A stretch of 64,000 nucleotides of DNA from Salinibaculum litoreum (GTDB lineage Archaea > Halobacteriota > Halobacteria > Halobacteriales > Haloarculaceae), in the NCBI GenBank assembly GCA_009789175.1, contig CP046866.1, positions 2,604,001 through 2,668,000 of the forward strand, given 5' to 3'. Below the pieces are notes generated by a model. That model searched no databases and was not told the origin of the DNA. It was given only the letters and a program-made list of their open reading frames with translations. The translations under genes and the position numbers were made by a program. Shown piece by piece: positions 27,079-44,850 of the stretch. How positions within the stretch are numbered: the first letter of the stretch is position 1; each line of letters begins with the position of its first letter.

Positions 27079-27168
27079 GTGGGCGAAAAAGGCCGCTCAC
27101 TCGCTCCGCTCGTGACCGGAACCACCCCCTGACCGCTTACATGAAGTCCGCAATCCCGCTCTGTTTGT
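27079..27168 (-). repeat. second copy of the polC 3' end (tail duplication)
   Basis: These 90 bp match 27,230-27,319 at 89 of 90 positions. Read on the minus strand the unit contains the last codons of polC (KQSGIADFM), the TAA, and ~58 bp of downstream sequence ending in TTTTTCGCCCAC. This copy is outside the polC frame's own stop and so is a detached gene tail. The 61 bp between the copies carry most of the element core shared with the argF locus (27,172-27,241). Confidence 0.92.
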
Positions 27169-27171
27169 ACT

Positions 27172-27241
27172 CCACCTTTTTCCCGCTCGGGTGCGCTCGC
27201 TTTGCTCGCCCACCACTCGCAGCAAAAACGTGGGCGAAAAA
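27172..27241 (-). mobile_element. short repeated element core, copy A beside polC
   Basis: Read on the minus strand: TTTTTCGCCCACGTTTTT at 27,241-27,224, GCGAGTGGTG, a 17-bp centre (27,194-27,210), then a right arm CACCCGAG...GAAAAAGGTGG (27,193-27,172). Arms differ from the argF copies only by one or two inserted or changed bases. It lies between the two copies of the polC tail, as B1 and B2 lie between argF tails. Confidence 0.5.
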
Positions 27242-27319
27242 GGCCGCTCACTCGCTCCGCTCGTGACCGGAACCACTCCCTGACCGCTTACATGAAGTCC
27301 GCAATCCCGCTCTGTTTGT
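27230..27319 (-). repeat. first copy of the polC 3' end, containing the functional stop
   Basis: This copy is the true gene end: polC stops at 27,288-27,290. Its downstream half has a GC-rich inverted repeat made of the CGAGCGGAGCGAGTG type, followed by TTTTT, which may serve as terminator. It is the direct-repeat partner of 27,079-27,168. Confidence 0.92.
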
Positions 27320-30300
27320 TCTGGTCGTTTTCGAAGATACGCTCGATACGCTTTTCCAGAATCTTGAGTCGCTGTGTCGTGTAGTCGCGGGTGCCAAACT
27401 CCTCGGCGACACGGAGGGCAGTGTCGATGTACTTGTTGACCGACCCCTCGTGGACTGTCAGATTGACATCGCCGCCACACTCCCGGCAGTCGCCTGTCAG
27501 CGGGACCCGGCGGAACTTCTCGCCACAGTCCAGACATCGGAACTCCTGGCTGGCGAAGGCGTTGAGATTGCCCAGCAAATCCGGCAGGAAGTGGTACTCG
27601 ATGATGCGCTCGGCCACGTCCGTCTCGTCGACCGCCCGGAGTTTCCGTGAGATCAGGAGCTGAGCGTCCATCTTCTCCTGCATCGACCCCAGCGTCTTGT
27701 ACGCGGAGAGATCCGGCCCTGCCGCGATGTTGGTCGTGTCGTGGGTGTGCTCAAAGTCGGTGTACTCCCGGTCGGTCCCCAGATTCTCCTCGGCGATAGT
27801 CATCACATCCTCGACTTCACCCGGTTCGGCTAGCTCCCGTGTGGCCTCGTAGAACTCCAGGGGGTACTCCCGCATGATGTCGACGTTGTGTGCCTCGTCG
27901 TCGATCTCGCTCGGGTCGATGCGCGAAGACATGACCAGCGGGGCGTCCATTCTTCCCCCTCGTTGATTTGGCAAAAATTTTATACTAAAGTTCAAAAGGC
28001 CGTCCAAAAGCAGCATCACACAATCTTCATCACCGTCGCAATTTCGGCGTTTCGAGGCGTGAAAGTACGGATGCGCGTATCCGACTGCCGCACTCGTGAA
28101 ACCAATCACTCTCCCGACAACAGCCGCACTCGTGTGGGGAGCCATCCCGAAGACGAGTTCGCCGACGAGGTCCTCACGGTCCTCGAGTTCGTAGTACGGG
28201 TCCAGCCCGTAGTACTGAGTCAGCAGGTCATCGACGAAGTCCGCAGTCTGGAGCATGTGCTCTGCCGCGCCGTCGGAGAGGACGATGTCCTGGACTTTCA
28301 ACTCGACGAGCTGGTCGTCGAAGCGAAGCGGGTCACCGTTGATGTCCTCCTCATACCCCAGTTCGCGGAAGTCCTCGACGGTGACATCCAGTTCCTCGGG
28401 GCGGACAGCAGTAACGGGGAGGTCTGTCATGTCGTAGCGGACGGTGCCGTCTTTGAACGCCGACACGTCGTGTTTCGCCCGGAGGATACCCTTCTCGACG
28501 GGTTCGGGTATCTTCTCCTCGGAGGAGAGTCCCTTGACGCCTTTCAGCACGTCGAAGGCGGAGGGGCGCTCGCCGACGGCATCGAGTGCATCCTGGAACT
28601 CACTCCCGATGTCGATTGTCGCATCCCGGGTCGGACGGCCGAGCGTCTCGCAGCGGTCACACTCCGCACGGCCGGACTCGTCGGGTTCGACCTCGGACCC
28701 ACAGTCGGGACAGACGTACACGGCCCGCGTCGTGCCACCACACTCCGGGCAGCGGGCCCGGTAGGTTCGAGTCCCGCAGTCGGTGCAGTCGCGGCGGCCC
28801 ACCTCGACTTCGACTTCGCCTTTTGTGCCTTCGACGGCATCACCGGCCTGTGCGGCCTTGGAAACGTCGCGCTGGCTGCCGCCGGCCTCGCCGATGGGAA
28901 AGAGCGTGTGGACCGCCGGCGAGAGTTCGCGTTCCTCCGACTTCTCCGGTCGGCCCATCCGGTTGCCGATACGAGTCGGTGCGCGCTCCCGGAGGGTGAA
29001 GGGTGCGAGTTCGTTGACGACCTCGATAGCGTTGTTGCCATCGTCGTATGTGCGGGCACGCTCGGAGAGGTCCGTGGCGGTCCGCAGACGCTCCAGGTCC
29101 GTCGAGAAGCCAAGCGTCCGAACCAGCGGTCGCCACTCGGGGACAACGAGCGCTTCCTCGGTCTGGGTGTGAGAGACCAGCAGGTGTTCCAGTGTCTTTC
29201 GGACCTGCTCGGTCCGTGGGAGGTGGAGGTCACCGGTCGCGTCCGACTCTTTGCGGTCGGCGAGCGCGCCGTCGCCAGCAGTGACCTCGGCTGCATCGAT
29301 GGCGTCAGCGAGTGTGAGTGCGTCGTCGACGGTCACGTCGTGCCAGAGGTAGGTATAATCCGGGTGCAACGGGGCGTCGTACTCCTCGGCCCATTCGAGC
29401 GCTTCGGCAGGCGAGGGGTTGGCGGGGTCGACATCGACGGCATCGTGCATCGCCTGGACGGGCGCACCCGCGTCCTCGAATTCCTGTATCCACCACTCGA
29501 CGGTGTAGGACGCGGGAGCAAGCGGATGGTTGTTCTCGACGAACTCGCCGTAGTTGACGAGGTACTCGCCCAAATCGAGAATCTTCTCGACGCCGTTGCG
29601 GAGTTCCAGCGCTTTTTCGGGGTCGTCGATGCGGCGCACGTCGCCGTTTGCCAGTCGGACGGTCGGCCCCTCGATGGTGTCGACGGGGATGACGCCGGCG
29701 GCCTTGCCCGGGCGCTCGGTCTTGATTTGTGTGCCGGTCGCGAGGAAGTCATCGACGAGATGCATCGTCGCAGGGTGGACGCCAGCAGTGGCGAAGCCGT
29801 GGTTGCGCGCCCGGCCATAACGGAGGCGAAAGCCCCCGGCTTCGCTCGGATGAGAGAAGACCGGGCGGCCGGCGATGAGGTCCCGCAGGAACTTCTTCGA
29901 GGGGTCCACCCTGGGCGGCCCCGCTAGTCCGTCGGCTTCGTCATCGCCCTCGGTGCTGTCGCCGTCGCCGCCGCCATCCTCATCGGCCTCGGCTTCCTCC
30001 GCGTCCTCGTCCTCGCTGTCCTCGTCACCGTCGGCGTCGTAGTTGCCGTCGATGAGGTCCTGGAGCCAGGGCCACTCTACCTCCTCCAGCGAGCGGGTGT
30101 AGCGCTGAATCTTGGGGGCTTTCAACGCGATACCCTCCGCGAAGACCAGACACATGCCGCCCCGAGAGGCGTTGGTGTCGACGCGTTCGAGGTCGCGGTA
30201 GCCCGAAACCTCCTCGTCGCCCGTCGCTTCACCATCGAGCATGATGGGCATGTGTTTCGCGATGAACTCGCTTTCTTTCTCCTTGGGGGAGTACTGCAGG

Positions 30301-30875
30301 CCCGTCTCGGAGTCATAGAGGTCGATTTCCTCGGCGTAGCGCCCCACCTCGTCGTCGCGGGGCTTGAACTCATCAACGTCCAGAAGCGTCCGGGCGTAGT
30401 CGGCCACGAGGACAGAAAGTGCCTGTGCGGTCCCGCCGGCGGAACGGATGGGGCCGGCGTAGTAGATGTTGATGAACTCCGAGCCGTCGTCGTTGTCCAG
30501 GATTTCCACGCGGTCGATGCCCTCGATGGGGGCAGCGACGACCCCCTCGGTGAGCAGGGCGACGGCAGTCCGGACCGCGCCCTCGATTTTGCCCGCGCGG
30601 GTGTCGTAGTCGCCGACAGAGCCCTCGACGAAGTCCGTGACGAGTTCCAGGGCCGCCTCCTCGCGGCTCATCTCGCCTTCGAGTTCGCGGACGCGCTCGG
30701 CGACCCCCTCGATTCCGAGGATGTTCTCGACGCGGTCGGCCATGTCCTGGGCGACCGGAATCTCGACCTCGGTCGTTGGGTCGCCACCCACCTCACGGGC
30801 GCGGTTGGCCACGTCGAAGGCCTCGTCGAGTTCGGACTCCAGGCGCTCGAAGTAGCGCTCGTCTGCCTGTCTCAT
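27288..30875 (-). CDS. polC: DNA polymerase D large subunit (DP2)
   Basis: A 1195-residue catalytic subunit of archaeal PolD, which partners with the DP1 small subunit for genome replication. Conserved blocks include NIYYAGPIRSAGGTAQALSV near 150, the zinc ribbon CTDCGTRTYRARCPECGG (~690), YAHPYFHASKRRNCDGDED with catalytic-site acidic residues (~945-965), and a C-terminal zinc finger CLDCGEKFRR...CRECGG. No intein is present, which is notable because that last conserved block is an insertion site in other archaea; around it (27,955-28,135) codons turn AT-rich. An acidic insertion (~275-320) is a halophilic feature. It starts 19 bp after the PPC-domain gene. Confidence 0.95.
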   Translation of the reverse strand: MRQADERYFERLESELDEAFDVANRAREVGGDPTTEVEIPVAQDMADRVENILGIEGVAERVRELEGEMSREEAALELVTDFVEGSVGDYDTRAGKIEGAVRTAVALLTEGVVAAPIEGIDRVEILDNDDGSEFINIYYAGPIRSAGGTAQALSVLVADYARTLLDVDEFKPRDDEVGRYAEEIDLYDSETGLQYSPKEKESEFIAKHMPIMLDGEATGDEEVSGYRDLERVDTNASRGGMCLVFAEGIALKAPKIQRYTRSLEEVEWPWLQDLIDGNYDADGDEDSEDEDAEEAEADEDGGGDGDSTEGDDEADGLAGPPRVDPSKKFLRDLIAGRPVFSHPSEAGGFRLRYGRARNHGFATAGVHPATMHLVDDFLATGTQIKTERPGKAAGVIPVDTIEGPTVRLANGDVRRIDDPEKALELRNGVEKILDLGEYLVNYGEFVENNHPLAPASYTVEWWIQEFEDAGAPVQAMHDAVDVDPANPSPAEALEWAEEYDAPLHPDYTYLWHDVTVDDALTLADAIDAAEVTAGDGALADRKESDATGDLHLPRTEQVRKTLEHLLVSHTQTEEALVVPEWRPLVRTLGFSTDLERLRTATDLSERARTYDDGNNAIEVVNELAPFTLRERAPTRIGNRMGRPEKSEERELSPAVHTLFPIGEAGGSQRDVSKAAQAGDAVEGTKGEVEVEVGRRDCTDCGTRTYRARCPECGGTTRAVYVCPDCGSEVEPDESGRAECDRCETLGRPTRDATIDIGSEFQDALDAVGERPSAFDVLKGVKGLSSEEKIPEPVEKGILRAKHDVSAFKDGTVRYDMTDLPVTAVRPEELDVTVEDFRELGYEEDINGDPLRFDDQLVELKVQDIVLSDGAAEHMLQTADFVDDLLTQYYGLDPYYELEDREDLVGELVFGMAPHTSAAVVGRVIGFTSAAVGYAHPYFHASKRRNCDGDEDCVMLLLDGLLNFSIKFLPNQRGGRMDAPLVMSSRIDPSEIDDEAHNVDIMREYPLEFYEATRELAEPGEVEDVMTIAEENLGTDREYTDFEHTHDTTNIAAGPDLSAYKTLGSMQEKMDAQLLISRKLRAVDETDVAERIIEYHFLPDLLGNLNAFASQEFRCLDCGEKFRRVPLTGDCRECGGDVNLTVHEGSVNKYIDTALRVAEEFGTRDYTTQRLKILEKRIERIFENDQNKQSGIADFM

Positions 30876-42528: not shown

Positions 42529-43625
42529 GCGGCACCACCCAGACCACGGAGGCCCGCGAGTTGTTGGAGAAACTCGTCGGCATCCCCTCGGTGACCGGCG
42601 AGGAGCGAGCCTGTGCCGAGCAGCTACAGACGTTCTTCGAGCGCCACGACCGCGAGGTGTGGATAGACGAGGTCGGCAACGTCCGGGCTCCGGCAGACGA
42701 CGGTGTCTTGCTGACCTCACACATCGACACCGTCCCGGGCGATATCCCTGTCCGGGTCGAGCAGTTACCCGCAGCGGATGTCCGCTGGGGCGGTGGTGGC
42801 GACCCGCCAAGCGAGCGGACGGACGTGCTCTGGGGCCGGGGCAGCGTCGACGCGAAGGGACCGCTGGCGTCGATGGCTGTCGCCGCGGTCCGGACCGGCG
42901 CGAGTTTCCTGGCCGTCGTCGGCGAGGAGGTCGACTCCCGAGGGAGTCGCTTCGTCGTCGAGGACCGCGACTCGGGTCCCGATGCGGTCATCAACGGCGA
43001 GCCATCCGGCTGGGACGGCATCACGCTCGGCTACCGTGGACTGGTCGCGGGGACGTACGTGGCCACCAGCGAGTCCGGTCACAGCTCCCGACCGGAGAAC
43101 AACGCCATCCAGGACGCCATCCAGTGGTGGGCCAACGTCGAAGAGGAGTTCGACACCGACGAGTGGGAACCCGTCTTCGAGCGGGTGACCGCGAAACCAA
43201 TCGACATCGACGGCGGGCTCTCGGAGGACGGCCTCGCCGTGGAGACGACGATGGATGTCCAACTGCGCGTGCCGCCGTCGATGAGTACCGAGGAGGTCAT
43301 CGAGATTACGGACGGCTATCTCGACGTGGCCGACCGGGTGAACTGGGACGACCGGGTCGAGCCAGTAATGGAGAACCCACGGACCAAAGTCGCACGCGCG
43401 TTCCGGGCGGCCATCCGCCAGCAGGGCGGTGACCCGCGCCTGCTGCGCAAGACCGGCACTAGCGACATGAACGTCTTCGCACAGCACTGGGATTGCCCGA
43501 TGGTCACCTACGGGCCCGGGGATTCTGACCTGGACCACGCACCCAACGAACACCTCGTGTTGGACGAATATGATAAGTCGGTGGCGGTCCTCGAATCAGT
43601 CACCGAGCGGCTCCTGGAGGACTAG
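42525..43625 (+). CDS. argE: LysW-ornithine hydrolase (ArgE/LysK family)
   Basis: A 366-residue M20-type metallohydrolase that releases ornithine from LysW. Metal ligands are visible in LLTSHIDTVPGD (~66-77), WGRGSVDAKGPLA (~106), and VVGEEVDSRGS (~131-141). An insertion with many acidic residues is halophilic. It is followed by argF after 1 bp. Confidence 0.93.
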   Translation: MSGTTQTTEARELLEKLVGIPSVTGEERACAEQLQTFFERHDREVWIDEVGNVRAPADDGVLLTSHIDTVPGDIPVRVEQLPAADVRWGGGGDPPSERTDVLWGRGSVDAKGPLASMAVAAVRTGASFLAVVGEEVDSRGSRFVVEDRDSGPDAVINGEPSGWDGITLGYRGLVAGTYVATSESGHSSRPENNAIQDAIQWWANVEEEFDTDEWEPVFERVTAKPIDIDGGLSEDGLAVETTMDVQLRVPPSMSTEEVIEITDGYLDVADRVNWDDRVEPVMENPRTKVARAFRAAIRQQGGDPRLLRKTGTSDMNVFAQHWDCPMVTYGPGDSDLDHAPNEHLVLDEYDKSVAVLESVTERLLED

Positions 43626-43626
43626 T

Positions 43627-44520
43627 ATGGACCTCGTTGATGTGGACGACCTCACGACCGACGAACTGCACGCCGTGCTTGACCGGGCGGCCGAACTGAA
43701 AGCCGCCCAGAGAGACGGCACGAGTCCCGACCACAGCCCGCTTGCCGACCAGACGCTGGGGATGATTTTCGAGAAACCCTCGACGCGGACCCGCGTCTCC
43801 TTCGAGACGGGGATGACCCAGCTCGGGGGCCATGCCATCTTCCTCGGGCCTGACGACATCCATCTGGGCCACGGCGAGCCTGTCAAGGATACCGCGCGTG
43901 CGGTCTCTCGCTATGTCGATTTCATCATGGCGCGGGTGTTCGACCACGCCGACGTGGTGGAGCTGGCCGAGTACGCGACGGTTCCGGTCATCAACGGGCT
44001 GACCGACGACGCCCATCCGTGCCAGACGCTGGCGGATTTGCTGACCATCCGGGAGCGCTTTGGCTTCGATACCTCGGTCGCGTGGGTCGGCGACGGCAAC
44101 AACGTCTGTCAATCGTTCGTCCTCGGAGCGGCGATGACAGGTCTCGACCTCACTGTCGCCACGCCGGAGGGCTACGGCGTCGACGAGGGAGTGCTGAAAC
44201 GCGCCCGCGGTCTGGGTGGCGACCCGACGCTCACGAACGACCCGGAAGCCGCCATCGCCGACGCCGACGTGGTCTACACGGACGTGTGGGTCAGTATGGG
44301 TCAGGAGGACGAACGCCAGCAGAAGCTCAACGACTTCGAGGGCTTCCAGCTCACCGCCGACCGTATCGGCGACCGACCGCTCATGCACTGTCTGCCCGCC
44401 CACCGCGGCGAGGAAGTGACCGACGACGCGCTCGAAAGCGAGAACGCAATCGTCTGGGACCAGGCGGAGAATCGGATGCACGCCCAGAAAGGCTTGCTCG
44501 TCTGGCTGTCCGAACAGTAG
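43627..44520 (+). CDS. argF: ornithine carbamoyltransferase
   Basis: A 297-residue enzyme that makes citrulline from ornithine and carbamoyl phosphate, completing the route before argG/H. KPSTRTRVSFE (~49-59) binds carbamoyl phosphate, HPCQTLADLL (~132) and HCLPAHRGEEV (~255) line the active site, and DVWVSMGQEDE binds ornithine. The last 14 codons (HAQKGLLVWLSEQ plus stop) are repeated twice downstream of the gene. Confidence 0.96.
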   Translation: MDLVDVDDLTTDELHAVLDRAAELKAAQRDGTSPDHSPLADQTLGMIFEKPSTRTRVSFETGMTQLGGHAIFLGPDDIHLGHGEPVKDTARAVSRYVDFIMARVFDHADVVELAEYATVPVINGLTDDAHPCQTLADLLTIRERFGFDTSVAWVGDGNNVCQSFVLGAAMTGLDLTVATPEGYGVDEGVLKRARGLGGDPTLTNDPEAAIADADVVYTDVWVSMGQEDERQQKLNDFEGFQLTADRIGDRPLMHCLPAHRGEEVTDDALESENAIVWDQAENRMHAQKGLLVWLSEQ

Positions 44521-44523
44521 CAC

Positions 44524-44555
44524 CCGGAGTCGAACGAAGTGAGACTCCGGTTTTT
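44524..44555 (+). terminator. hairpin plus T-run after argF
   Basis: CCGGAGTC (44,524-44,531) pairs perfectly with GACTCCGG (44,543-44,550), and TTTTT follows immediately. This looks like a bacterial-type intrinsic terminator and would end the arginine transcript 3 nt after the stop. Confidence 0.65.
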
Positions 44556-44616
44556 CGCCCACGTTTTTCGACGAGTGGTGACGACCGCAGGGAGTCACCC
44601 GAGGAGAAAAAGGTGG
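44551..44616 (+). mobile_element. short repeated element core, copy B1 (possible MITE-like element)
   Basis: The core begins TTTTTCGCCCACGTTTTT, continues to CGAGTGGTG, has a 15-bp variable centre, and ends CACCCGAGGAGAAAAAGGTGG. A second copy follows at 44,694-44,770 (26-bp centre), and a third lies on the minus strand at 27,172-27,241 beside polC (17-bp centre). The arms are imperfect inverted repeats (TTTTTC/GAAAAA, GGTG/CACC). It encodes no protein. Whether it moves is inference from its presence at two unrelated loci. Confidence 0.5.
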
Positions 44617-44666
44617 TGAGGCACGCCCAGAAAGGCTTGCTCGTCTGGCTGTCCGAACAGTAGCAC

Positions 44667-44698
44667 CCGGAGTCGAACGACGTGAGACTCCGGTTTTT
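44667..44698 (+). terminator. duplicated hairpin plus T-run after the second argF tail
   Basis: The same 8-bp stem and TTTTT as at 44,524-44,555, with one changed loop base. It exists because the gene tail and its terminator were duplicated as a block. Confidence 0.6.
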
Positions 44699-44770
44699 CG
44701 CCCACGTTTTTCGACGAGTGGTGCCCGTAGCGAACACAGTGAGCGAGGACACCCGAGGAGAAAAAGGTGG
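44694..44770 (+). mobile_element. short repeated element core, copy B2
   Basis: Arms identical to B1; only the central 26 bp (44,724-44,749) differ from B1's 15 bp. The centre contains the CGAACACAGTGAGCGAG motif typical of haloarchaeal spacers. Confidence 0.5.
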
Positions 44771-44850
44771 TGAGGCACGCCCAGAAGGGCTTGCTCGTCT
44801 GGCTGTCCGAACAGTAGCGCCGGCGACTGAGCGAAGACACTTTTCGGCGG

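Follow-up and report, generated by a model that had tools for sequence, protein, structure and literature searches.

The stretch of DNA analysed here (the window, 64,000 nucleotides of the Salinibaculum litoreum genome, C1:2604001-2668000) contains two genes, argF and a gene that we take to be polC-like, followed by two and one small hairpin elements, respectively, and each by further copying of the gene's own 3' end, or tail. The genome, designated G000, is 3.73 Mb in size and 99.87% complete. The features at the two loci are as follows.

43627..44520, plus strand: argF (ornithine carbamoyltransferase), host gene; ORF 43570-44520, start judged from sequence
44478..44521, plus strand: argF tail copy 1, within the gene, ending just beyond the stop codon; direct repeat
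44522..44550, plus strand: argF hairpin 1, copy 1, a terminator-like stem 5' of a T-run, ACCCGGAGTCGAACGAAGTGAGACTCCGG
44551..44616, plus strand: argF hairpin element E1, TTTTTCGCCCACGTTTTT ... GAAAAAGGTGG
44617..44664, plus strand: argF junction TGAG and tail copy 2 (44621-44664)
44665..44693, plus strand: argF hairpin 1, copy 2
44694..44770, plus strand: argF hairpin element E2, with the arms of E1 and another centre
44771..44818, plus strand: argF junction TGAG and tail copy 3 (44775-44818), no element after it
27288..30875, minus strand: polC-like host gene; ORF, C-terminal protein sequence
27230..27319, minus strand: first polC tail together with hairpin 1 and TTTTTCGCCCAC; 90 bp repeat, distance 151
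27172..27241, minus strand: polC hairpin element, TTTTTCGCCCACGTTTTT ... GAAAAAGGTGG
27079..27168, minus strand: second polC tail together with hairpin 1 and TTTTTCGCCCAC; element absent downstream

The argF product carries HCLPAH and HAQKG motifs and has relatives in 141 of 142 genomes of the family; the other gene presumably encodes the large subunit of archaeal DNA polymerase D. At argF, the sequence 44478-44580 recurs at +143 (103 bp) and its first part, 44478-44521, once more at +297, and at polC 27079-27168 recurs at +151 (90 bp). The initial annotation of the window had described a core shared by both argF spacers and the polC spacer, a tiny palindromic element lying just 3' of the gene behind a hairpin and T-run. 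This description stands, since exact TTTTTCGCCCACGTTTTT...GAGTGGTG and CACCCGAG...GAAAAAGGTGG arms are present in all three elements. The accompanying statement that only the centre differs is correct as regards the arms, which are identical at the three loci, but the centres of argF E1 and E2 also differ from each other, as both do from that of polC.

Across the family the unit is an imperfect hairpin of 60-80 bp consisting of CTTTTTCGCCCACGTTTTT, a variable stem-loop and GAAAAAGGTGG, and measures 57-79 bp from TTCGCCC to GGTGG. The arms, noted at the outset as imperfect inverted repeats, indeed fold with the centre into one long hairpin, in which a G-G mismatch separates the CCAC/GTGG and TTTTT/AAAAA pairings. 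Among 158 distinct centres the median folding z-score was -2.5 relative to mononucleotide shuffles, and several pairs of inner columns proved complementary far more often than shuffled partners (for example 115/158 against 63, and 116/158 against 67), with C-G, G-C and T-A as alternative pairs; relatedness between centres is kept in the shuffle. The loci were collected by exact arm patterns, so that these sets give no measure of conservation or covariation in the arms themselves. A second hairpin, of unrelated sequence, is usual 5' of the T-run (mean stem score 6.9, compared to 2.2 after shuffling). In the interval from the stop codon to hairpin 1, many loci (for example L051, L069, L114, L142 and L188) have yet another hairpin, bounded by GCATCC and GGTTCAC. 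At one argF locus (L291, genome G095) the centre is inverted relative to the arms, as if the hairpin centre had been flipped, and the right arm there reads AAAAACGTGG.

The likeness of the three spacers is not a matter of chance: the two-arm pattern CCACGTTTTTN{25,55}AAAAAGGTGG matches 20 times in the 3.73 Mb of G000 and the reversed control pattern not at all. These 20 full copies include ten within one perfect array. Of the 20 occurrences of the right end GAAAAAGGTGG in the genome, 18 lie inside elements; TTTTTCGCCCACG has 25 exact occurrences, of which 20 are inside full elements. Several of the remaining TTTTTCGCCCACG sites are variants of the element accompanied by gene-tail copies, at genes that we take, from their protein sequences, to be gatA, purM and tiaS: in the first (L222) TTTT pairs with AAAA in place of TTTTT with AAAAA, the second (L245) has a larger centre and the third (L267) has the left arm GGGCCAGATTTTT. 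The ten-element array (L013-L022, C1:2703788-2705384) consists of perfect tandem copies with a 171 bp period, each unit comprising the tail of a radical-SAM-like gene, the hairpin and the element, and it ends in an element-free tail; its host gene, of 343 codons, appears by eye to encode a radical SAM protein. Most element loci of G000 fall within C1:2535594-3034776, a region of about 0.5 Mb in a main contig of 3.3 Mb.

Some loci carry additional features. At L242 (G000, C1:3034528) the left arm CGCCCACGTT runs into a chain of other hairpins (CGGAAGAGCAGTGCTCTTCC...), possibly a second type of element, and at L024 the second tail copy leads into a start similar to that at L242. A longer conserved stretch (GGGGAAGGGCAGG...GCACCCGCGAGCG or similar) lies around 170 bp 5' of the element at L006 and L012 in G000, and again at L005 and L007 in genome G001; it was seen at several loci lacking tail copies, and could be a non-coding RNA for which the element serves as terminator.

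Beyond this genome, a strict form of the arm pattern was found in 84 of 146 genomes and 17 of the 22 genera of the family, and a relaxed form, with two left-arm bases free, in 147 of 392 genomes and 46 of the 96 genera of the order; the control count was 0 for both. Some genomes are present in two collections, from which identical stretches were removed. When 84,980 species genomes were scanned, the matches listed were from halobacterial records only, their genera including Haloarcula, Halorientalis, Halomicrobium, Halosimplex, Halovenus, Halorubellus, Halohasta, Salinarchaeum and others. Other lineages have CCAGC, CCATC or CCAGG in place of CCACG in the left arm, with GGTGG unchanged, a constancy imposed in part by the search pattern, which requires GGTGG. 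At argF loci, which were found by protein search, GGTGG is independently present except in the variant AAAAAGTGG. The open-access full-text literature, interrogated also with the exact arm strings, yielded no paper describing the element, and in eight loci compared with the Rfam 15 covariance models nothing matched over it. The sole real Rfam hit, a strong match to L4-Archaeoglobi (RF03135) at L004:238-337 on the minus strand in a haloarchaeal genome, lies away from the element. As the initial annotation had supposed, no known family was found with these features, neither a REP or MITE family nor a published description having been matched, and the element, with hundreds of copies among the haloarchaea, is apparently a widespread and hitherto undescribed mobile repeat.

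The relationship between the element and the adjacent gene was assessed in 161 copies with enough flanking sequence by aligning 500 bp upstream to 250 bp downstream and accepting scores of at least 20. In 76 of the 161, upstream sequence was repeated directly downstream, a figure that may be compared to 0/161 when the downstream sequence was swapped for that of another locus. Bounding of the element by copies of the gene's last codons, as originally described in the window, is thereby extended to other loci, but about half of the copies have no tail copy after them. The copied gene differs from locus to locus, with 45 clusters (grouped by gene and start position) for one element, in agreement with the early view that there is no single attachment site of the integrase type. 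Gene names were read by eye, except in searched families, and on the basis of C-terminal sequences the duplicated tails include those of argF, pheT, polC, citrate synthase, spt5, ileS and gatB, as well as hisH, hisF, ilvD, etfA, nuoI, sufS and a thiolase. Placement relative to genes, proposed earlier as a check, is not random. The element was also said to be always oriented with its host gene, which is true within the window but not family-wide: the duplications at L056 and L065 cover the 5' end of an antisense gene, and that at L190 takes in no protein gene tail but the greater part of a tRNA gene encoded on the other strand.

In almost all cases the downstream tail copy starts 0-8 nt past GGTGG, and it commonly ends at the upstream gene's stop codon or within the hairpin that follows. 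The left boundary of the duplication is not fixed, and may coincide with the stop codon, fall within hairpin 1 or lie beyond the T-run; duplication lengths over the 45 clusters range from 24 to 131 bp, with a median of 59. The codon phase of the duplication start appears variable by eye. Microhomology, or a fixed motif, at this start was considered and rejected, as the gene sequence before it agrees with the element end at no more than 16-34% per position. The junctions fall into classes, assigned after inspection of the same loci: in 15 of the 45 clusters GGTGG is followed by three bases matching the gene, one extra base (mostly C or T) and the rest of the tail, in 14 there are one or two substitutions at the same place, and six are exact. 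As a speculation, a scar three nucleotides outside the hairpin base would suit a junction resolvase cutting an extruded cruciform. GGTGG is not convincing as a Shine-Dalgarno sequence, no consistent start codon following it, and no scaffold was seen that would support reading the tail copy as a CRISPR or TnpB guide.

Copies lacking a duplication have a characteristic setting of their own. In 30 of 81 such copies, a convergent long ORF has its stop codon 0-7 nt past GGTGG, compared to 2% of control windows, and no copy with a tail copy (0/69) has a convergent stop codon at that place. The element at these convergent-gene sites is exactly between the two genes, with T-tracts offered to both. In Haloferax, intergenic terminators consist of a T-stretch, with the transcript ending at a C (PMC7237163). 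The TTTTTC of the present element fits this pattern which, together with the siting between convergent genes, makes a terminator function likely. To judge from sequence, the element is probably a two-way terminator, with transcripts predicted to end at TTTTTC on one strand and, on the opposite one, in CCACCTTTTT. The resemblance to haloarchaeal T-stretch terminators (PMC7237163) lies in the T-tract followed by C behind genes; the difference is that the T-tracts here sit in a conserved, dispersed unit of 60-80 bp with flanking gene-tail copies.

It might be supposed that the element is nothing other than an old, fixed and non-mobile two-way terminator, at the base of which replication or repair stalls, re-priming upstream then duplicating the gene tail. 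The many convergent-gene copies without duplication are in keeping with this explanation, as is the clustering of junction errors 3-4 nt from the hairpin base (three matching nucleotides and one inserted in 15/45, one or two substitutions in 14/45). At L081, L099, L101 and L164, moreover, hairpin 1 combines a native 5' arm with a new 3' arm, much as in fold-back copying. Against it stand the pheT sites, the arrays and the spread of identical cores, and we regard it as unlikely, though not negligible. The pheT locus was compared in 30 genomes of Haloarcula. In many species the stop codon is directly joined to the downstream region, an empty site, and in other Haloarcula species hairpin, element and tail copy lie between the stop codon and that same downstream region. 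Every pheT site with recognisable arms also has a tail copy, and the empty sites inspected have no element. Similarly, nine of ten arrays lack an element after the last tail. Eight of these were recognised by alignment score; in the ninth, the hisH array L173, inspection by eye showed a 26 bp hisH tail after the final element; array L167, which terminates in an element, is the only exception. Simple tandem duplication, which would leave an element after the last tail, is disfavoured by the same nine arrays. Together, the empty and filled pheT sites and the terminal tails are in keeping with an insertion that duplicates its target, unequal exchange taking place thereafter.

Identical cores at unrelated loci would also require spreading. 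In Halorientalis marina the elements L142, L188 and L105 have identical or near-identical centres in unrelated flanks, the identity extending from CTTTTTCGCCCACG to AAAAAGGTGG only. More generally, centres from one genome resemble each other more (0.29) than do those from different genomes (0.18), and in 12% of cases, compared to 2.6% with shuffled labels, a centre has its nearest non-orthologous relative in its own genome. Ectopic gene conversion could be an alternative source of this within-genome likeness.

Our preferred interpretation, held with moderate confidence, is that a widespread, transposase-free mobile hairpin, which makes long target duplications and is amplified by recombination, is present in the window once at polC and twice at argF. 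By comparison of species rather than sister strains, the unit, some 60-80 bp long and very precise at one end (GAAAAAGGTGG), would insert immediately 3' of a gene, at the end of the transcript or close to it, leaving a long and variable direct target duplication (24-131 bp, median 59) formed by the gene tail. Since the duplication is of the gene's own tail, the gene stays intact. The flanking direct repeats would then feed homologous recombination, with unequal exchange producing arrays (tail-element-tail-element-tail), exchange between two tails removing the element cleanly, and gene conversion keeping the second tail like the gene; we infer both excision and conversion by this route. For as long as the element stays at its site, its hairpins and the T-tracts of both strands would probably act as a two-way transcription terminator. 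Counting against this interpretation are the copies without duplication, about half of the total, the variable left boundary, array L167 with its terminal element and the failure of the searches made to reveal a partner protein; nor are duplications so long and variable known for DNA transposases. At pheT, where most filled species have a common duplication start, the second tail is closest (or equally close) to the same species' gene in 11 of 12 comparisons, two genomes being counted twice, and these tails are under concerted evolution. At argF, many relatives have element and tail with several different duplication starts, suggesting that argF received the element, or had its copy renewed, on more than one occasion. 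At L302 and L303 (G075 and G073) a further argF tail copy lies some 950-1000 bp downstream, with element-like hairpins between, and may be an old array or contain a larger insert.

Where tail copies differ, they do so preferentially at third codon positions (91/152). This is expected from selection on the gene together with conversion, but would also be seen if the element brought its own tail. The latter would be the case if the element were the scar, or a miniature, of a tyrosine-integrase element, with gene tails as attL and attR and the gene restored on integration, and the blocks of gene-tail identity ending at the stop codon are of the kind such an element would give. This origin is nevertheless improbable: an integrase uses one site, compared to the 45 gene/position clusters here, the element is far too small, and its tail copies follow the local gene.

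Partnership with a Y1 transposase of the IS200/IS605 type, making the element a PATE-like or REP-like non-autonomous derivative, would be suggested by the hairpin ends, but described PATEs have neither target duplications nor terminal inverted repeats (PMC3119063). The transposase (Y1_Tnp, PF01797) is common in the family, being present in 92 of 142 genomes, yet no match at the search threshold was found in G000, despite its perfect ten-copy array, or in several other carriers, and this explanation is very improbable. Scarcely credible is a retroelement, acting by target-primed reverse transcription of a small RNA or as a diversity-generating retroelement: it would explain variable long duplications and siting at transcript 3' ends, and variable-length duplications, one precise end and sense insertion behind terminators do resemble target-primed insertion and group IIC introns, but the reverse transcriptase domain RVT_1 (PF00078), detected in three control genomes, occurs in one of 142 family genomes, G046, in which the element is absent. 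The autonomous relative that the initial annotation had proposed to seek did not emerge, the RVT_1 and Y1 searches and the fetched loci revealing no transposase, recombinase or other partner.

Comparison with known systems places the transposase-free mobile hairpin closest to the small mobile repeats (SMRs) of Haloquadratum walsbyi, which have terminal inverted repeats unrelated to known transposons and an enigmatic mobilisation (PMC3119063). Both are haloarchaeal repeats with inverted ends, here the inverted arms of units of 57-79 bp, and the present element too is apparently transposase-free. SMRs are reported to make no target duplications, and some families prefer insertion into other mobile elements (PMC3119063), whereas the present element has gene-tail duplications of 24-131 bp, housekeeping neighbours and a conserved GAAAAAGGTGG end; the long duplications at 76 of 161 copies (control 0/161) set it apart from SMRs in this respect. 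Its behaviour is all the same that of a small mobile repeat, and there is a serious chance that it inserts by a new mechanism. MITEs are likewise short, non-coding, multi-copy and bounded by inverted repeats, but have short target duplications of fixed length, and their ends match those of a parent transposon, none of which was met among the fetched loci. The PATEs and other IS200/IS605 derivatives share palindromic character, small size and haloarchaeal hosts, and differ in the absence of terminal inverted repeats and target duplication (PMC3119063); G000, moreover, gave no Y1 transposase match. The contrast extends to two further systems associated with gene ends. Group IIC introns insert in sense orientation behind terminator hairpins, but the element has neither ribozyme nor reverse transcriptase, and the introns give no target duplication of 24-131 bp. 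Integron attC sites are gene-end hairpins with conserved arms and variable terminal structure, but there are no cassette arrays of different genes here, the tails are those of the local gene and no attC box sequence was seen.

More tentatively, and with rather less confidence than we attach to mobility itself, we suggest that this protein-free hairpin may be a new kind of prokaryotic mobile DNA, whose DNA-based insertion at housekeeping transcript ends would proceed with neither reverse transcriptase nor IS200-type transposase, duplicate 24-131 bp of gene tail, leave a scar (GGTGG, three matching nucleotides and one extra) and then supply the gene's terminator. Tail copies of this sort yield false gene fragments and mimic attachment sites, which should be borne in mind in annotation. 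If the interpretation is correct, a class of mobile repeat not described before is spread through much of an archaeal order, where it marks the ends of core genes, among them argF, pheT, polC, citrate synthase, spt5, ileS, gatA and gatB. What moves the transposase-free haloarchaeal repeats, enigmatic since 2011 (PMC3119063), would become testable, as would the origin of variable long target duplications without reverse transcription and the role of mobile DNA as a supplier of terminators between genes.
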